NCBI GenBank assembly: GCA_016870355.1
Contig: VGBR01000005.1
Location: 62,001-126,000 of the forward strand
Length of the DNA stretch: 64,000 bases
Reading direction: 5' to 3'
DNA from: Actinomycetota bacterium
GTDB lineage: Bacteria > Actinomycetota > Acidimicrobiia > IMCC26256 > PALSA-555
Shown: piece after piece, positions 3,546 to 16,503 of the stretch
Layout: the number at the start of each line of letters is the position of its first letter
How positions within the stretch are numbered: the first letter of the stretch is position 1
The notes under the pieces: model-generated
What the model was told of the DNA's origin: nothing
The model's input: the letters and a program-made list of their open reading frames with translations, nothing else
The model's database searches: none
Position numbers and translations under genes: made by a program

Positions 3546-4859
3546 ATGAGCCGCTGGTCGGTCCGGCTGCGCGTCACGCTCGCCGCCGCAGGCTTGTTCG
3601 CGATCGCATTGACGCTCGCGTCCTTCGCGCTGGTGACTTCGGTGCACAGCAACCTTACCGACGAGATCGAGGAGACGAACGAGGAGGCACTCGACCAGCT
3701 CGCGCAGCAGGTGCAGTCGGGCACGCCCGTCGACCAGGTCCGGATCCCGACCAACGGTCCCGGCAACCAGCCGACGTTTCGTGCGGTCGGGCCGGGCAGC
3801 GGCGACGTGCAGATCCCCGGGGCGAACAACGGGCAACGACCGGGCCCGCCGCCGACCGGTCCGAACGCAACGCCCTACGTGCAGGCGCGGCGCACGATCG
3901 AGACTGCCGCGGGCGAGAAGGTGACGCTCATCGCCGAACGGTCGCTGGCCGAAGTGGACGACACCGTCAAGAGCATCACCGACGCGCTCGTCATCGGCGT
4001 GCCGGTGCTGGTGCTCGTGCTTGGCGCGCTCACGTGGTGGATCGCGGGGCGGGCGCTGCGACCAGTCGAGGCGATCCGATCGGAGGCGGCCGAGATCACC
4101 GCGAGCACGATCCACCGTCGCGTGCCGGAACCGGACACCGACGACGAAGTGGGACGACTGGCCCGCACGATGAACTCGATGCTGGACCGACTGGAAGAGT
4201 CGTCGTTGCGTCAGCGGCGCTTCGTGTCGGACGCGTCGCACGAGCTGCGCAGCCCGGTTTCCGCGATCCGTGCCCAGCTCGAGGTCGCGCTGCGCCGCGG
4301 AGAGCAAGCCGACTGGCCCGCCGTCGCGGGTGCCGTGCTCGAAGAAGACGCACGCCTGGAGCAAGCCGTCACCGAGCTGTTGGAGCTGGCGCGCGCCGAG
4401 GAGAGCGCCGACATCGAACGCGTCGATGTCGATCTGGACGATGTCGTGCTGAGCGAGACACAACGAGAACGCCGCGTCCCCGTCGACACGAGTCGAGTGT
4501 CGGCCGGACGGGTGCGCGGGAGTGAGCCGCAGCTCGCGCGCGTCGTCCGCAACCTGCTCGACAACGCGTGCCGCCACGCGCGGTCGCAGGTTGCGGTTGC
4601 GGTCGCGGCACAGAACGGATCGGTGTGGCTCTCCGTCGATGACGACGGTCCCGGCGTGCCTCCAGGCGATCGCGCTCGCGTGTTCGACCGCTTCACCCGT
4701 CTCGACGAAGGGCGGGTGCGCGACGCGGGCGGGATGGGGCTGGGTCTGTCGATGGTGAAGGCGATCGTCGACCGCCACGGTGGCGCAGTCGCGATCGACG
4801 AGGCGCCACTCGGCGGCGCGCGCTTCGTGGTGCGCCTGCCCAGCTCCGATACGACCTAA
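3546..4859 (+). CDS. Membrane sensor histidine kinase
   Basis: A 437-residue partner of the preceding response regulator. Transmembrane segments lie at about residues 9-31 and 147-167. Between them is a roughly 115-residue extracytoplasmic part rich in Pro, Gly and Asn. A HAMP linker follows, then the HisKA box with the phospho-acceptor His232 in SDASHELRSP, the N box RNLLDNACRHA, and the ATP-lid glycine motifs DDDGPGVP and GGMGLGLSMV. The start ATG is one base past the regulator's TGA. The signal sensed cannot be read from the sequence. Confidence 0.93.
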   Translation: MSRWSVRLRVTLAAAGLFAIALTLASFALVTSVHSNLTDEIEETNEEALDQLAQQVQSGTPVDQVRIPTNGPGNQPTFRAVGPGSGDVQIPGANNGQRPGPPPTGPNATPYVQARRTIETAAGEKVTLIAERSLAEVDDTVKSITDALVIGVPVLVLVLGALTWWIAGRALRPVEAIRSEAAEITASTIHRRVPEPDTDDEVGRLARTMNSMLDRLEESSLRQRRFVSDASHELRSPVSAIRAQLEVALRRGEQADWPAVAGAVLEEDARLEQAVTELLELARAEESADIERVDVDLDDVVLSETQRERRVPVDTSRVSAGRVRGSEPQLARVVRNLLDNACRHARSQVAVAVAAQNGSVWLSVDDDGPGVPPGDRARVFDRFTRLDEGRVRDAGGMGLGLSMVKAIVDRHGGAVAIDEAPLGGARFVVRLPSSDTT

Positions 4860-5611: not shown

Positions 5612-5736
5612 TGCACTGCTGCGCTTGAGCGGGCATGTTGACCACGAGCGCCCCGATCGTCAGCGTGGGTGCAGTGGTGTCCGCGGCGCGGTGGGTGGCG
5701 GTACGACGACGCCTCGAGTCAAGAACGAAGCGGCAC

Positions 5737-6423
5737 TTAGAACGGCGCGGGAATCCCGTTGTAGGCGAGCATCTCCCGGTACATCTGGATGATGCGGCTG
5801 GCGTACGTGGTGGAGCTCGCCCAGTTTCCGTTGCCCATCTGGTTCCAGGTGGTCGCCTTGCCCTTCGGCGTCACGAAGTGGAAGCGGGGGTCGACGCACG
5901 CCGCGTGCAATGGCGGCACGGTGCAGGTCGTCGCGGTGCTGTCGGCGTAGGCGCGCAGGTGCTGGATCTGCGCCCGGACGCCGATCTGTGCCGTGGGGAA
6001 CGCGGCCGGGGTGCCGCCGCTGTCGATTGCGCCGATGCCGGCGAAGTTGTTGTTCGCGGGCGACACGGCGCCGCCGAAGCGGAACCAGCCCGTCTCGAGG
6101 ATGGACTGGATGAAGGCGACATCACCGCGGATGCCCTCTTGAGCGCCTTCCTCGAGGTAGTACTGCGCGAGGGTCGCCACCGGCACCGAGGCCTCGTAGG
6201 TGCCGCTCGGCTGGGGGGTGCGGCCCGAGAACCAGGCGGCGAGCTGCGCCGGGGTCGCGAGCGACGCTCCGCCGATCGGCAGGACACCGGCTGAGGGCGC
6301 CGGGGCCGCCGGGGTGGTGGTGGGCGGCGGCGCCACCCGGGGCCCGCACGCGGCCACCAGGGTGCCGCTGAGGGTGAGAATGAGGCCGGCTGTCAGCCGT
6401 CGGGTCGCGCGGAAACTGGTCAT
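5737..6423 (-). CDS. Lipoprotein glucosaminidase-like cell-wall hydrolase
   Basis: A 228-residue secreted lipoprotein. A basic, hydrophobic signal peptide ends in the lipobox LVAAC (Cys about residue 26), followed by a Pro/Thr/Ala-rich linker. From residue ~85 there is a GH73-like glucosaminidase domain, with the likely catalytic Glu in QSILETGWFRF, then NNFAGIG and a C-terminal MYREMLAYNG. It would cut the glycan strands of peptidoglycan outside the membrane. ATG 6423 is chosen because the signal peptide starts there; the frame stays open upstream but codes nothing recognisable. Confidence 0.85.
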   Translation of the reverse strand: MTSFRATRRLTAGLILTLSGTLVAACGPRVAPPPTTTPAAPAPSAGVLPIGGASLATPAQLAAWFSGRTPQPSGTYEASVPVATLAQYYLEEGAQEGIRGDVAFIQSILETGWFRFGGAVSPANNNFAGIGAIDSGGTPAAFPTAQIGVRAQIQHLRAYADSTATTCTVPPLHAACVDPRFHFVTPKGKATTWNQMGNGNWASSTTYASRIIQMYREMLAYNGIPAPF

Positions 6424-13887: not shown

Positions 13888-15024
13888 CTATTGGCGCGGG
13901 AGCCCGAGCACGCGCTCCGCGATCACGTTGCGCTGAATCTCGTTCGTACCGGCGTAGATCGGACCAGAGAGCGCGAACTGGTAGCCCTTCAGCCAGTCAC
14001 TGTCGTCATGGTCGAACTCGGCACCGAGGATCTCCATCGCGACCTCGTGCATGCGGACGTCGAGGTCGGACCAGAACACCTTGGTGAGGCTCGATTCGGC
14101 ACCGAGGTTCTCGCCGTCGGTCATTCGGGTCACGGTGAGGAACGTCTGCCATCGGTACGCCTCGGCGTCGATGAACGCGTGCACGACTTCGTCGGCAAGA
14201 CGCGGGTCATCAGCGCCTCGCGTCTTGTAGAGGTCGACCAGTCGGGCCGCGGTCGCCATGAAGCGGCCAGGGCTACGGAGTGTCAGTCCGCGCTCTGCGC
14301 TCGTGGTCGCCATCGCGACGCCCCAGCCCTGGTGCACGTCTCCCAGGACGTCGCCGTCAGGCACGAACACGTCGTCGAGGAACACTTCGGCGAAGCCCTC
14401 GTCACCGTCGAGGCGACCGAACCCGCGCACGGTCACGCCCGGCGCGTCGAGCGGCACGAGGAAGTAGGTGAGGCCGCGATGGCGATCCGCCTCGGGGTCG
14501 CTGCGGAACAGGCCGAACAGGTGCGTGCAGAACCCACCGCGGGTGGTCCAGGTCTTCTGGCCAGTGAGCCGCCACCCACCGGCCTGCTCGTCGCGCACGG
14601 CCTTGCTCTGGATGCCTGCGAGGTCGCTGCCGGCATTCGGCTCCGACCAGCCCTGGCACCACAGGTCTTCCGCCGCGGCCATGCGAGGGAGGATCCGGTC
14701 CTGCTGCTCCTTCGTGCCGAACTCGAACACCGTCGGCGCGAGCAAGAAGATCCCGTTCTGGGTGACGCGCTGCGGTCCGCCGGCCCGGTAGTACTCCTCC
14801 TCGAAGATCAGCCATTCCATCGCTGACGCGTCGCGCCCGCCGTACTCCTCGGGCCACGACACCACGGCGTAGCGCGCGTCGAACAGCGCGCGCTCCCACT
14901 CGAGGTGCGCCGCGAACCCGTCACGCGTGTCACCCGAGACCAGCCCCCGCGGCACGTTCGCCTCGAGCCAACCGCGACACTCAGCCCGAAACGCCTCTTC
15001 CGCGTCCGAAAACCTCAGATCCAC
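13888..15024 (-). CDS. Acyl-CoA dehydrogenase, long subunit
   Basis: A 378-residue acyl-CoA dehydrogenase. It contains CQGWSEPNAGSDLAGI, GQKTWTT (FAD/substrate contacts), GRLDGDEGFAEVFLDDVFVP and the C-terminal GPIYAGTNEIQRNVIAERVLGLP, the conserved end of the family. It removes hydrogens alpha,beta to the CoA thioester using FAD. It leads an operon of long subunit, short subunit and thiolase. Which steroid or fatty acyl intermediate it takes cannot be set from sequence alone. Confidence 0.9.
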   Translation of the reverse strand: MDLRFSDAEEAFRAECRGWLEANVPRGLVSGDTRDGFAAHLEWERALFDARYAVVSWPEEYGGRDASAMEWLIFEEEYYRAGGPQRVTQNGIFLLAPTVFEFGTKEQQDRILPRMAAAEDLWCQGWSEPNAGSDLAGIQSKAVRDEQAGGWRLTGQKTWTTRGGFCTHLFGLFRSDPEADRHRGLTYFLVPLDAPGVTVRGFGRLDGDEGFAEVFLDDVFVPDGDVLGDVHQGWGVAMATTSAERGLTLRSPGRFMATAARLVDLYKTRGADDPRLADEVVHAFIDAEAYRWQTFLTVTRMTDGENLGAESSLTKVFWSDLDVRMHEVAMEILGAEFDHDDSDWLKGYQFALSGPIYAGTNEIQRNVIAERVLGLPRQ

Positions 15025-15056: not shown

Positions 15057-15109
15057 GCATTCTGGGGACGCTCAGGGTCGCCATAGCGACCTGAGCGTCA
15101 CAAGAATCC
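15057..15109. repeat. Left palindromic inverted repeat flanking the DUF559 gene
   Basis: Begins GCATTCTGGGGACGCTCAGG and ends CCTGAGCGTCACAAGAATCC. It folds on itself: GACGCTCAG pairs with CTGAGCGTC, GTCGC with GCGAC, with a CATA loop. Its reverse complement matches the copy at 16034-16086 at about nine of ten positions. The TGA of the DUF559 gene (15098-15100) lies inside it. It may act as terminator as well as element end. Confidence 0.85.
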
Positions 15110-16012
15110 TTTGAGGGCACGCCGGACCGTGCTGGCAACGTACTCAGGCCGCTTCGTGATCTGGTCCCAGGTGAAGCGCAAGACGTGCCACCGATCCGAG
15201 CTGAACCGATTGTCGCGCGCGAGATCGGCTTCGCGGTCCAACAGCGCGGTGTGGTGACGACGACTGTCCGCCTCGATGAGTACGTGTGCATTGCGGTACA
15301 CGAGCTCAACCCGGCCGACCCATCCGTCGGCATCGCCGATGTTGATCTCTCGCGCAGGCATCGGGAGTCCAGCATCGCGAAGAACTTCCAAGAGCCGCGC
15401 CTCAAGTTCGCTCGCTGGCGCCACATACCCATCACCGCGCGCGAGGAGCAGCTCGCGCATGAGCGCAGTTCCCTTGCGGCCGCGCTCGGCCAGGTCAGCG
15501 AAGACTCGCCAGCACGCCGGAATGGTCACGAGCCCGCGAGAGAGCGAGTTGTCGAGGGCACGCTCGGCACGCCGAGGATGGATCGTGCCGCATAAGTCGA
15601 ACAAGGTCCGCGCGATGGTGGTCGCGGGGATCGCGTCGACGACACGGCGGTGCCACGCGGGGGGCGTGGCCGAGAAATGGACGTTCGCGAAGTCCAAACG
15701 GGGTCTCTTACCGTATGGAACCGTCAGGTCGTACGACGAGAGCTGGAAGCCCGGGACGACAGAGAGCGCCGCCGACGTCCGATGTGAGGCGCACGCTCCG
15801 TCACCACCCGCCATCACCATCGCCATGACCCGTGTCCGTGTCGTCACCGGCGCACCGCGGATCCGATAGATCTGCGCATGCATCCGGACGAGCATCCCTT
15901 TCGCTCGGTTCTTGATTGCCGACGGCGTCGCACCCACCGCCAGCAGCTGCTGATAGGAGACGACCGCGTGCTGGCTGGCGGCTACCTCAGCGATCCGATC
16001 GTCGAGAACCAT
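15098..16012 (-). CDS. AbiEi-like winged helix plus DUF559 nuclease-fold protein
   Basis: A 304-residue protein (307 if GTG 16021 is used). The N-terminal ~50 residues (IAEVAASQHAVVSYQQLLAVG) resemble the AbiEi antitoxin/winged-helix domain. The last ~110 residues resemble DUF559, a Vsr-like PD-(D/E)XK fold: RVELVYRNAHVLIEADSRRHH supplies the acidic core, and RWHVLRFTWDQI the final strand and helix. Such proteins are common paralogues in actinobacteria; their role is unproven. No toxin partner is adjacent. It sits between a SnoaL-like gene and an acyl-CoA dehydrogenase operon, framed by inverted palindromes, which suggests a mobile or transcriptionally insulated unit. Confidence 0.8.
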   Translation of the reverse strand: MVLDDRIAEVAASQHAVVSYQQLLAVGATPSAIKNRAKGMLVRMHAQIYRIRGAPVTTRTRVMAMVMAGGDGACASHRTSAALSVVPGFQLSSYDLTVPYGKRPRLDFANVHFSATPPAWHRRVVDAIPATTIARTLFDLCGTIHPRRAERALDNSLSRGLVTIPACWRVFADLAERGRKGTALMRELLLARGDGYVAPASELEARLLEVLRDAGLPMPAREINIGDADGWVGRVELVYRNAHVLIEADSRRHHTALLDREADLARDNRFSSDRWHVLRFTWDQITKRPEYVASTVRRALKGFL

Positions 16013-16033
16013 CGCCACCACGACCCGTCCGCA

Positions 16034-16086
16034 GCATTCTTGTGACGCTCAGGGCCGCTATGGCGACCTAGGCGTCCCCAGAATGC
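16034..16086. repeat. Right palindromic inverted repeat flanking the DUF559 gene
   Basis: Begins GCATTCTTGTGACGCTCAGG and ends CGTCCCCAGAATGC. It is the inverted partner of 15057-15109 and is itself an imperfect hairpin. Outer ends of the pair read GCATTCT...AGAATGC. It separates the SnoaL-like gene's stop (16111) from the DUF559 start. No target-site duplication is obvious on either side. Confidence 0.85.
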
Positions 16087-16110: not shown

Positions 16111-16503
16111 CTAGGCGCGGGCGGCTTGCTTGAGGGATTCGGGGTCTTGGTAGTACTCGCGCCACCATTGGATGACGCCTTCTTTGAGTTGGCAGACGTT
16201 CATGCCGCACCAGGTGATCTCTTGGTTGTCGGCGCGGCGCGCGACGGTGATCGTCCAGTCGCACATCACGACGTCGTCATCACCGATGGCGAGATGGTGG
16301 AAGTCGAACGACACCGGCTTCGCCCACTCGAACGACATCTTCGTCATCGATTCGTACTCAGCGTGGCCTCGGACGGTGCGCGTAGGAGTCTCGAGCACGA
16401 CATCCTCGGCGAAGCATGCGAGGTAGCCCTCGAGGTCCTCGGCCAGCCACGCGACGCGGCGCCGCTCGTAGAGGGTTCGCGCCTCGTCCAGCGTGATGCT
16501 CAT
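16111..16503 (-). CDS. SnoaL-like/NTF2-fold protein
   Basis: A 130-residue protein of the SnoaL/NTF2-like cone fold: ARTLYERRRVAWLAEDLEGYLACFAEDVVL at the start (quoted for its pattern of helix then FAEDV), TVRGHAEY, and ITWCGMNVCQLKEGVIQWWREYY. Members are isomerases, hydratases or binding proteins. Its ATG overlaps the TGA of the serine hydrolase gene by four bases (ATGA), so the two are translationally coupled. Function unassigned. Confidence 0.82.
   Translation of the reverse strand: MSITLDEARTLYERRRVAWLAEDLEGYLACFAEDVVLETPTRTVRGHAEYESMTKMSFEWAKPVSFDFHHLAIGDDDVVMCDWTITVARRADNQEITWCGMNVCQLKEGVIQWWREYYQDPESLKQAARA

Follow-up and report, generated by a model that had tools for sequence, protein, structure and literature searches.

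The window, a stretch of 64,000 nucleotides from an Actinomycetota genome of 2.8 Mb (G000), contains a nuclease gene framed by two palindromes between a SnoaL-like gene and an acyl-CoA dehydrogenase gene. Genomes of relatives are denoted G001 and so on, and loci are given L numbers. The features of the locus, in window coordinates, are as follows:

13888..15024, minus strand: acyl-CoA dehydrogenase gene, right-hand neighbour of the insertion
15057..15109, no strand: palindrome 1, with imperfect 18-bp arms and a 13-nt centre, lying over the nuclease gene at its 3' end, stop codon included
15098..16021, minus strand: 307-aa nuclease gene; residues ~1-200 have a full-length AbiEi-antitoxin-like fold (winged helix and AbiEi C-terminal domain)
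C-terminal part of the same gene, residues ~202-307: Vsr/DUF559 nuclease fold with E207, E239, E250, D252, H257, D266 and R269
16033..16086, no strand: palindrome 2, inverted relative to palindrome 1, just 5' of the nuclease gene start
16111..16503, minus strand: SnoaL-like gene, left-hand neighbour of the insertion

The geometry reported in a preliminary description of the window was reproduced: the coordinates of the two inverted ~53-bp palindromes were verified, no gene other than the nuclease gene lies between them, palindrome 1 contains the stop codon of that gene, and the SnoaL-like and acyl-CoA dehydrogenase genes flank the unit. In ungapped direct orientation the palindromes are 82% identical over 51 nt, and the reported match at roughly nine in ten positions was recovered in inverted orientation with two single-base gaps. 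As a single-stranded DNA hairpin, palindrome 1 has a predicted energy of -20.3 kcal/mol (z -6.6, with 0/200 shuffles as good), and palindrome 2 of -12.4 kcal/mol (z -2.9, 3/200 shuffles as good). No GTAG tag was found at the ends of either palindrome; GACGC/GCGTC lies inside the paired arms.

The proposed AbiEi/DUF559 identity of the gene product was likewise borne out. Pfam recognised DUF559 (E = 4.6e-6; 26.9 bits against a cut-off of 20.6); AbiEi fell below the Pfam cut-off in the window protein and was identified by PADLOC (E = 9e-26). In the predicted structure (pLDDT 95.1, pTM 0.88), residues 2-196 superpose on the AbiEi antitoxin of S. agalactiae (Z 14.1), and residues 202-307 match I-Bth0305I, a homing endonuclease, and NGO0050 (Z 12.8 each), as well as Vsr (1cw0, Z 10.8). 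The positions E207, D239, E250, H257, D266 and R269 show conservation in no fewer than 58 of the 62 homologues. The window protein retains E207, E250, D252, H257, D266 and R269, and carries E at position 239 versus D in 60/62 homologues. These residues form a predicted conserved candidate active site on the modelled Vsr-like fold. A Caulobacter DUF559 protein triggers the SOS response in methylase-lacking cells, a result consistent with nuclease activity in the DUF559 family (PMC12907096). No AbiEii toxin partner (nucleotidyltransferase) was found among the immediate neighbours of the window gene, which are the SnoaL-like and acyl-CoA dehydrogenase genes instead, and Y1_Tnp (RAYT-type) transposases are absent from G000 and from 37/40 relatives.

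Homologues of the window protein were present in 34 of the 41 genomes searched, the relatives being mostly draft genomes. Matching repeats occurred on both sides of the gene at 51/66 usable homologous DUF559 loci, compared with 1/175 other ORFs in the fetched loci of related genomes, which served as control (Fisher p = 2e-37); the framing threshold of 20.5 was set at the highest value in the first mismatched-locus control. L058, the control ORF with the top score (51.5), was rejected as an independent framed gene, being a neighbour beside extra copies of the DUF559 gene's own repeat. In an across-phylum sample, 19/30 DUF559 loci were framed. DUF559 genes elsewhere thus carry pairs of their own, where the preliminary description had allowed that they might lack them while palindromes stood at gene ends without DUF559. 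Palindromes without DUF559 do exist; like REPs, they form a family that is dispersed within, and specific to, its genome.

The framing repeats are alike within a pair and different between genes. Many are near-perfect palindromes (for example at L038, L050, L051, L056 and L062) and others are weaker, so that "matching repeat pair" is the safer wording for the whole set; about a quarter of the homologous loci lack a detectable pair. The stop codon falls inside a repeat at 23/51 framed loci. Pairs are inverted in 24 cases and direct in 26, a near equality unlike classical terminal inverted repeats, which implies that the ends of the element are not defined as in a normal transposon.

Within G000, the palindrome core pattern was found at 11 places versus none for the reversed control pattern, and the family is therefore not a product of chance; L010 was discarded as an apparently spurious, chance match to the pattern. 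About ten real copies remain, two framing the gene and eight solo, most of them sharing an arm asymmetry (...TGGGGACGC... / ...GCGTCACRAGAA...). Solo copies are intergenic or at gene ends, next to neighbours in all orientations, including one divergent pair, and the two that overlap called ORFs do so only at the extended start of the ORF. At up to one mismatch, the window palindrome was not found in three same-genus genomes, and one related copy was found among 60 relatives. At L021 (G000:C23), a solo palindrome at 5639-5685 resembles the family framing another G000 DUF559 gene, L075, and lies ~3.7 kb from a solo copy of the window's family. At L019 (G000:C1:368988-379012), a duplicated stretch contains the identical hairpin CTCAAACTAACCGAGTGGTTAGTTTGAG at 4340-4410 and 6230-6310, ~1.9 kb apart; these twin hairpins were set aside, as they come from the duplication.

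Dispersal of other families was followed by searching 41 genomes with 24 palindromes joined into one query. The query matched only 17/41, and among the matches listed all fell within a palindrome's own genome or close relatives of it. Most families checked had solo copies in their own genome: at least nine identical copies in G011, at least seven each in G010, G029 and G033, at least six in G002, at least five each in G005, G014 and G026, and at least two to three for two G000 families. For L068 and L077, two of the five G000 families examined, no solo copies were among the matches listed. The more similar two proteins are, the more similar their palindromes tend to be (Mantel r = 0.34, p = 2e-4), also when only between-genus pairs are considered (r = 0.30, p = 2e-4), under a permutation that treats loci as exchangeable.

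The preliminary description had suggested comparing the SnoaL-acyl-CoA dehydrogenase junction in relatives for empty sites, and this comparison was made. The gene order thiolase, two acyl-CoA dehydrogenases, SnoaL, beta-lactamase-like and NMO-like is conserved in G000, G001, G003, G005, G006 and G008. The insert of the window is absent from the syntenic junction in G001, G005, G006 and G008, four of the five relatives compared, where the acyl-CoA dehydrogenase orthologue adjoins SnoaL; a fixed position of the gene in all relatives, which would have spoken against mobility, is not what was seen. G003 has an insert at the same junction, encoding a 64% identical protein with related repeats, in the opposite orientation to that in G000, a difference that may go back to a single ancestral insert that inverted, or to a hot spot that received two insertions. 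The junction in G005 (L114, G005:C531, about 3745-3814) has a strong solo palindrome of unrelated sequence instead of the insert, which suggests that the junction is an insertion hot spot.

Eight further framed loci have a gene-free orthologous site in at least one sister genome, with flanks about 90-220 bp apart versus ~1.2 kb, making nine such loci with the window's included. Most of the gene-free sites at these eight loci lack a palindrome; a solo copy from a different family stands at one site, and another solo palindrome at one more. At a tenth locus, G009 has one solo palindrome exactly where G007 has a palindrome-gene-palindrome unit, with flanks 91-93% identical, and a homologue search found no close homologue of the framed G007 gene in G009. 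Exact insertion boundaries or a target-site duplication were not established at any locus, the closest allele pair being only ~92% identical. A tblastn search of phages and plasmids gave no match, leaving spread on such carriers unsupported. At L250 (G001:C14:26215-26595), G001 has a solo palindrome where G000 has the palindrome-gene-palindrome unit L074; this solo belongs to the family framing another G001 DUF559 gene (L080).

Taken together, these observations make it probable that the palindrome-gene-palindrome unit is a small REP/RAYT-like mobile element with the Vsr-like nuclease as its enzyme. The analogy to REP/RAYT pairs, already drawn in the preliminary description, gains support from the framing of homologous genes (51/66 versus 1/175, and 19/30 across the phylum), the gene-free sites and the dispersed genome-specific families; mobility itself is supported by comparison of orthologous sequences. 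According to this model, the AbiEi-like winged-helix part would recognise the cognate palindrome, which would be nicked or cut by the Vsr/EDxHD-type nuclease, perhaps while in an extruded hairpin form. Cutting and subsequent copying would spread either the palindrome alone, giving intergenic solo copies, or the complete unit, in a manner similar to the spread of REP hairpins by a RAYT transposase, and collapse of the two palindromes round the gene to one could leave a solo copy behind. Recognition and cutting of the palindrome by the window-type protein, as opposed to an unseen enzyme, are inferred, as is the order of strand events.

The unit resembles a REPtron (RAYT with REP) in having one gene framed by matching palindromes, solo copies dispersed intergenically and lineage-specific families matched to their own protein. 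It differs in its enzyme, which combines the Vsr/DUF559 nuclease fold with an AbiEi-like domain, in the lack of Y1_Tnp in G000 and of a GTAG tag at the window palindromes, and in the copy number, about ten rather than hundreds. Because the enzyme is not an HUH tyrosine transposase, the unit does not belong to the REPtrons.

The main rival is homing, in which the nuclease would cut solo palindromes and the gene would be copied in by recombination on the palindrome arms, placing the unit in either orientation. The catalytic domain is close in fold to that of I-Bth0305I, an EDxHD/Vsr-like homing endonuclease (Z 12.8), with comparable acidic and histidine active-site residues; repeat pairs are found in both orientations, and at one locus the gene-free allele is a solo palindrome (G009 versus G007). 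However, most gene-free orthologous sites have no palindrome of the family concerned, and a framed locus keeps two palindromes, so that the recognition site is not obviously destroyed as in classical homing. Unlike I-Bth0305I, the gene described here is free-standing between two intact palindromes at chromosomal intergenic sites, has an AbiEi-type domain fused to the nuclease, and is associated with no intron or intein. We regard homing as unlikely. AbiEi antitoxins are DNA-binding autoregulators of inverted repeats, and the match of the N-terminal ~200 residues to this family raises another alternative: the palindromes may be operators bound by the AbiEi-like domain, the dispersed copies a regulon, and the gene a regulator with a vestigial nuclease. 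We consider this improbable, given that the nuclease residues are conserved in at least 58/62 homologues, that solo copies are not consistently upstream of genes, that the repeat families are genome-specific, and that the short DUF559 subfamily described below is also tied to repeats without having an AbiEi part.

The preliminary description had offered a defence gene isolated by terminators as an alternative to mobility, and the palindromes could accordingly be ordinary bidirectional terminators insulating horizontally acquired defence genes. Many hairpins do lie near gene ends, the stop codon is within the repeat at 23 of 51 loci, and PADLOC classes the protein as AbiEi. Terminators, however, need neither a paired sequence match nor gene specificity, genome-specific dispersal or covariation with the protein, and one G000 solo copy lies between divergent genes. 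The comparison with type IV toxin-antitoxin systems is also limited: the AbiEi fold (Z 14.1 over residues 2-196; PADLOC E = 9e-26) is shared, but the protein described here has an additional nuclease domain, and AbiEii toxin genes are absent from the immediate neighbourhood of its gene, which argues against a defence role of this type. The terminator reading explains neither the dispersed families nor the protein-palindrome covariation and, owing to this poor fit, was rejected as very improbable.

Under the preferred reading, that of a mobile element with its own nuclease, the palindrome-framed Vsr-like nuclease element is apparently a kind of mobile element without earlier description. Open-licence papers on DUF559, covered by title, opening of the abstract and targeted searches, do not appear to connect DUF559 with dispersed palindromes, and the novelty of the element class is to be read within the bounds of that limited literature. 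Bacterial genomes commonly contain dispersed palindromic repeats, and outside REP/RAYT the origin of these is for the most part unexplained; one class of repeats was left without an enzyme by Di Nocera et al. 2013 (PMC3733652). A recurrent, covarying partnership with a Vsr-like nuclease would supply a testable enzyme for such repeats, would establish a new class of mobile elements of very small size, and would give the widespread "domain of unknown function" DUF559 a candidate function. How a nuclease reads hairpins could also be studied in the many protein-palindrome pairs that the partnership provides.

A second subfamily, of short DUF559 proteins (~110 aa) without the AbiEi part, is associated with a repeat of a different kind. 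With a generic short DUF559 query sequence, 80 short-DUF559 loci were collected from many phyla. A CCCTCTCCC...GGGAGAGGG hairpin occurs within 300 bp of the gene at 0.82 copies per locus upstream and 0.92 downstream, and beyond that distance at 0-0.08 per 300-bp bin. It is present on both sides at 40/72 loci and on one side at 18 (L148-L227 set). In sequence form this repeat corresponds to the intrastrand triplex (PIT) motif of the literature. Holder et al. 2015 (PMC4666352) found neither mobility activity nor a gene class for that motif and connected it with no enzyme. Like the window unit, this system has a dispersed hairpin repeat flanking a DUF559 gene; unlike in the window unit, the repeat, which has a GGGTGAGGG-type tail, hardly varies from phylum to phylum, and no AbiEi part is present in the protein. 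We give about equal weight for and against the broader proposal that bacteria have, in the Vsr-like DUF559 nucleases, a second kind of enzyme, of independent evolutionary origin, for spreading and maintaining dispersed palindromic repeats. In this proposal each AbiEi-fused protein would have its own co-evolving palindrome family, while E. coli YcjD and other short proteins would be the so far unrecognised partners of the widespread PIT motif.

A role of DUF559 as the missing partner of CGTC-tagged REPs was not supported: the short-DUF559 loci contained about one clear CGTC-type REP, and the other near hits were triplex-type or other hairpins. In E. coli, a triplex-type motif lies 167 bp downstream of ycjD, whose stop codon is covered by a degenerate hairpin. 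The ycjD locus looked polymorphic, but the ycjD-lacking allele inspected, that of strain A13, was not accepted as a clean empty site, since it has an efflux operon with a TetR regulator instead. The ycjD form of the sapF-fabI interval (L228 and L272) is covered over at least 80% of the locus in 3333/5426 E. coli genomes.
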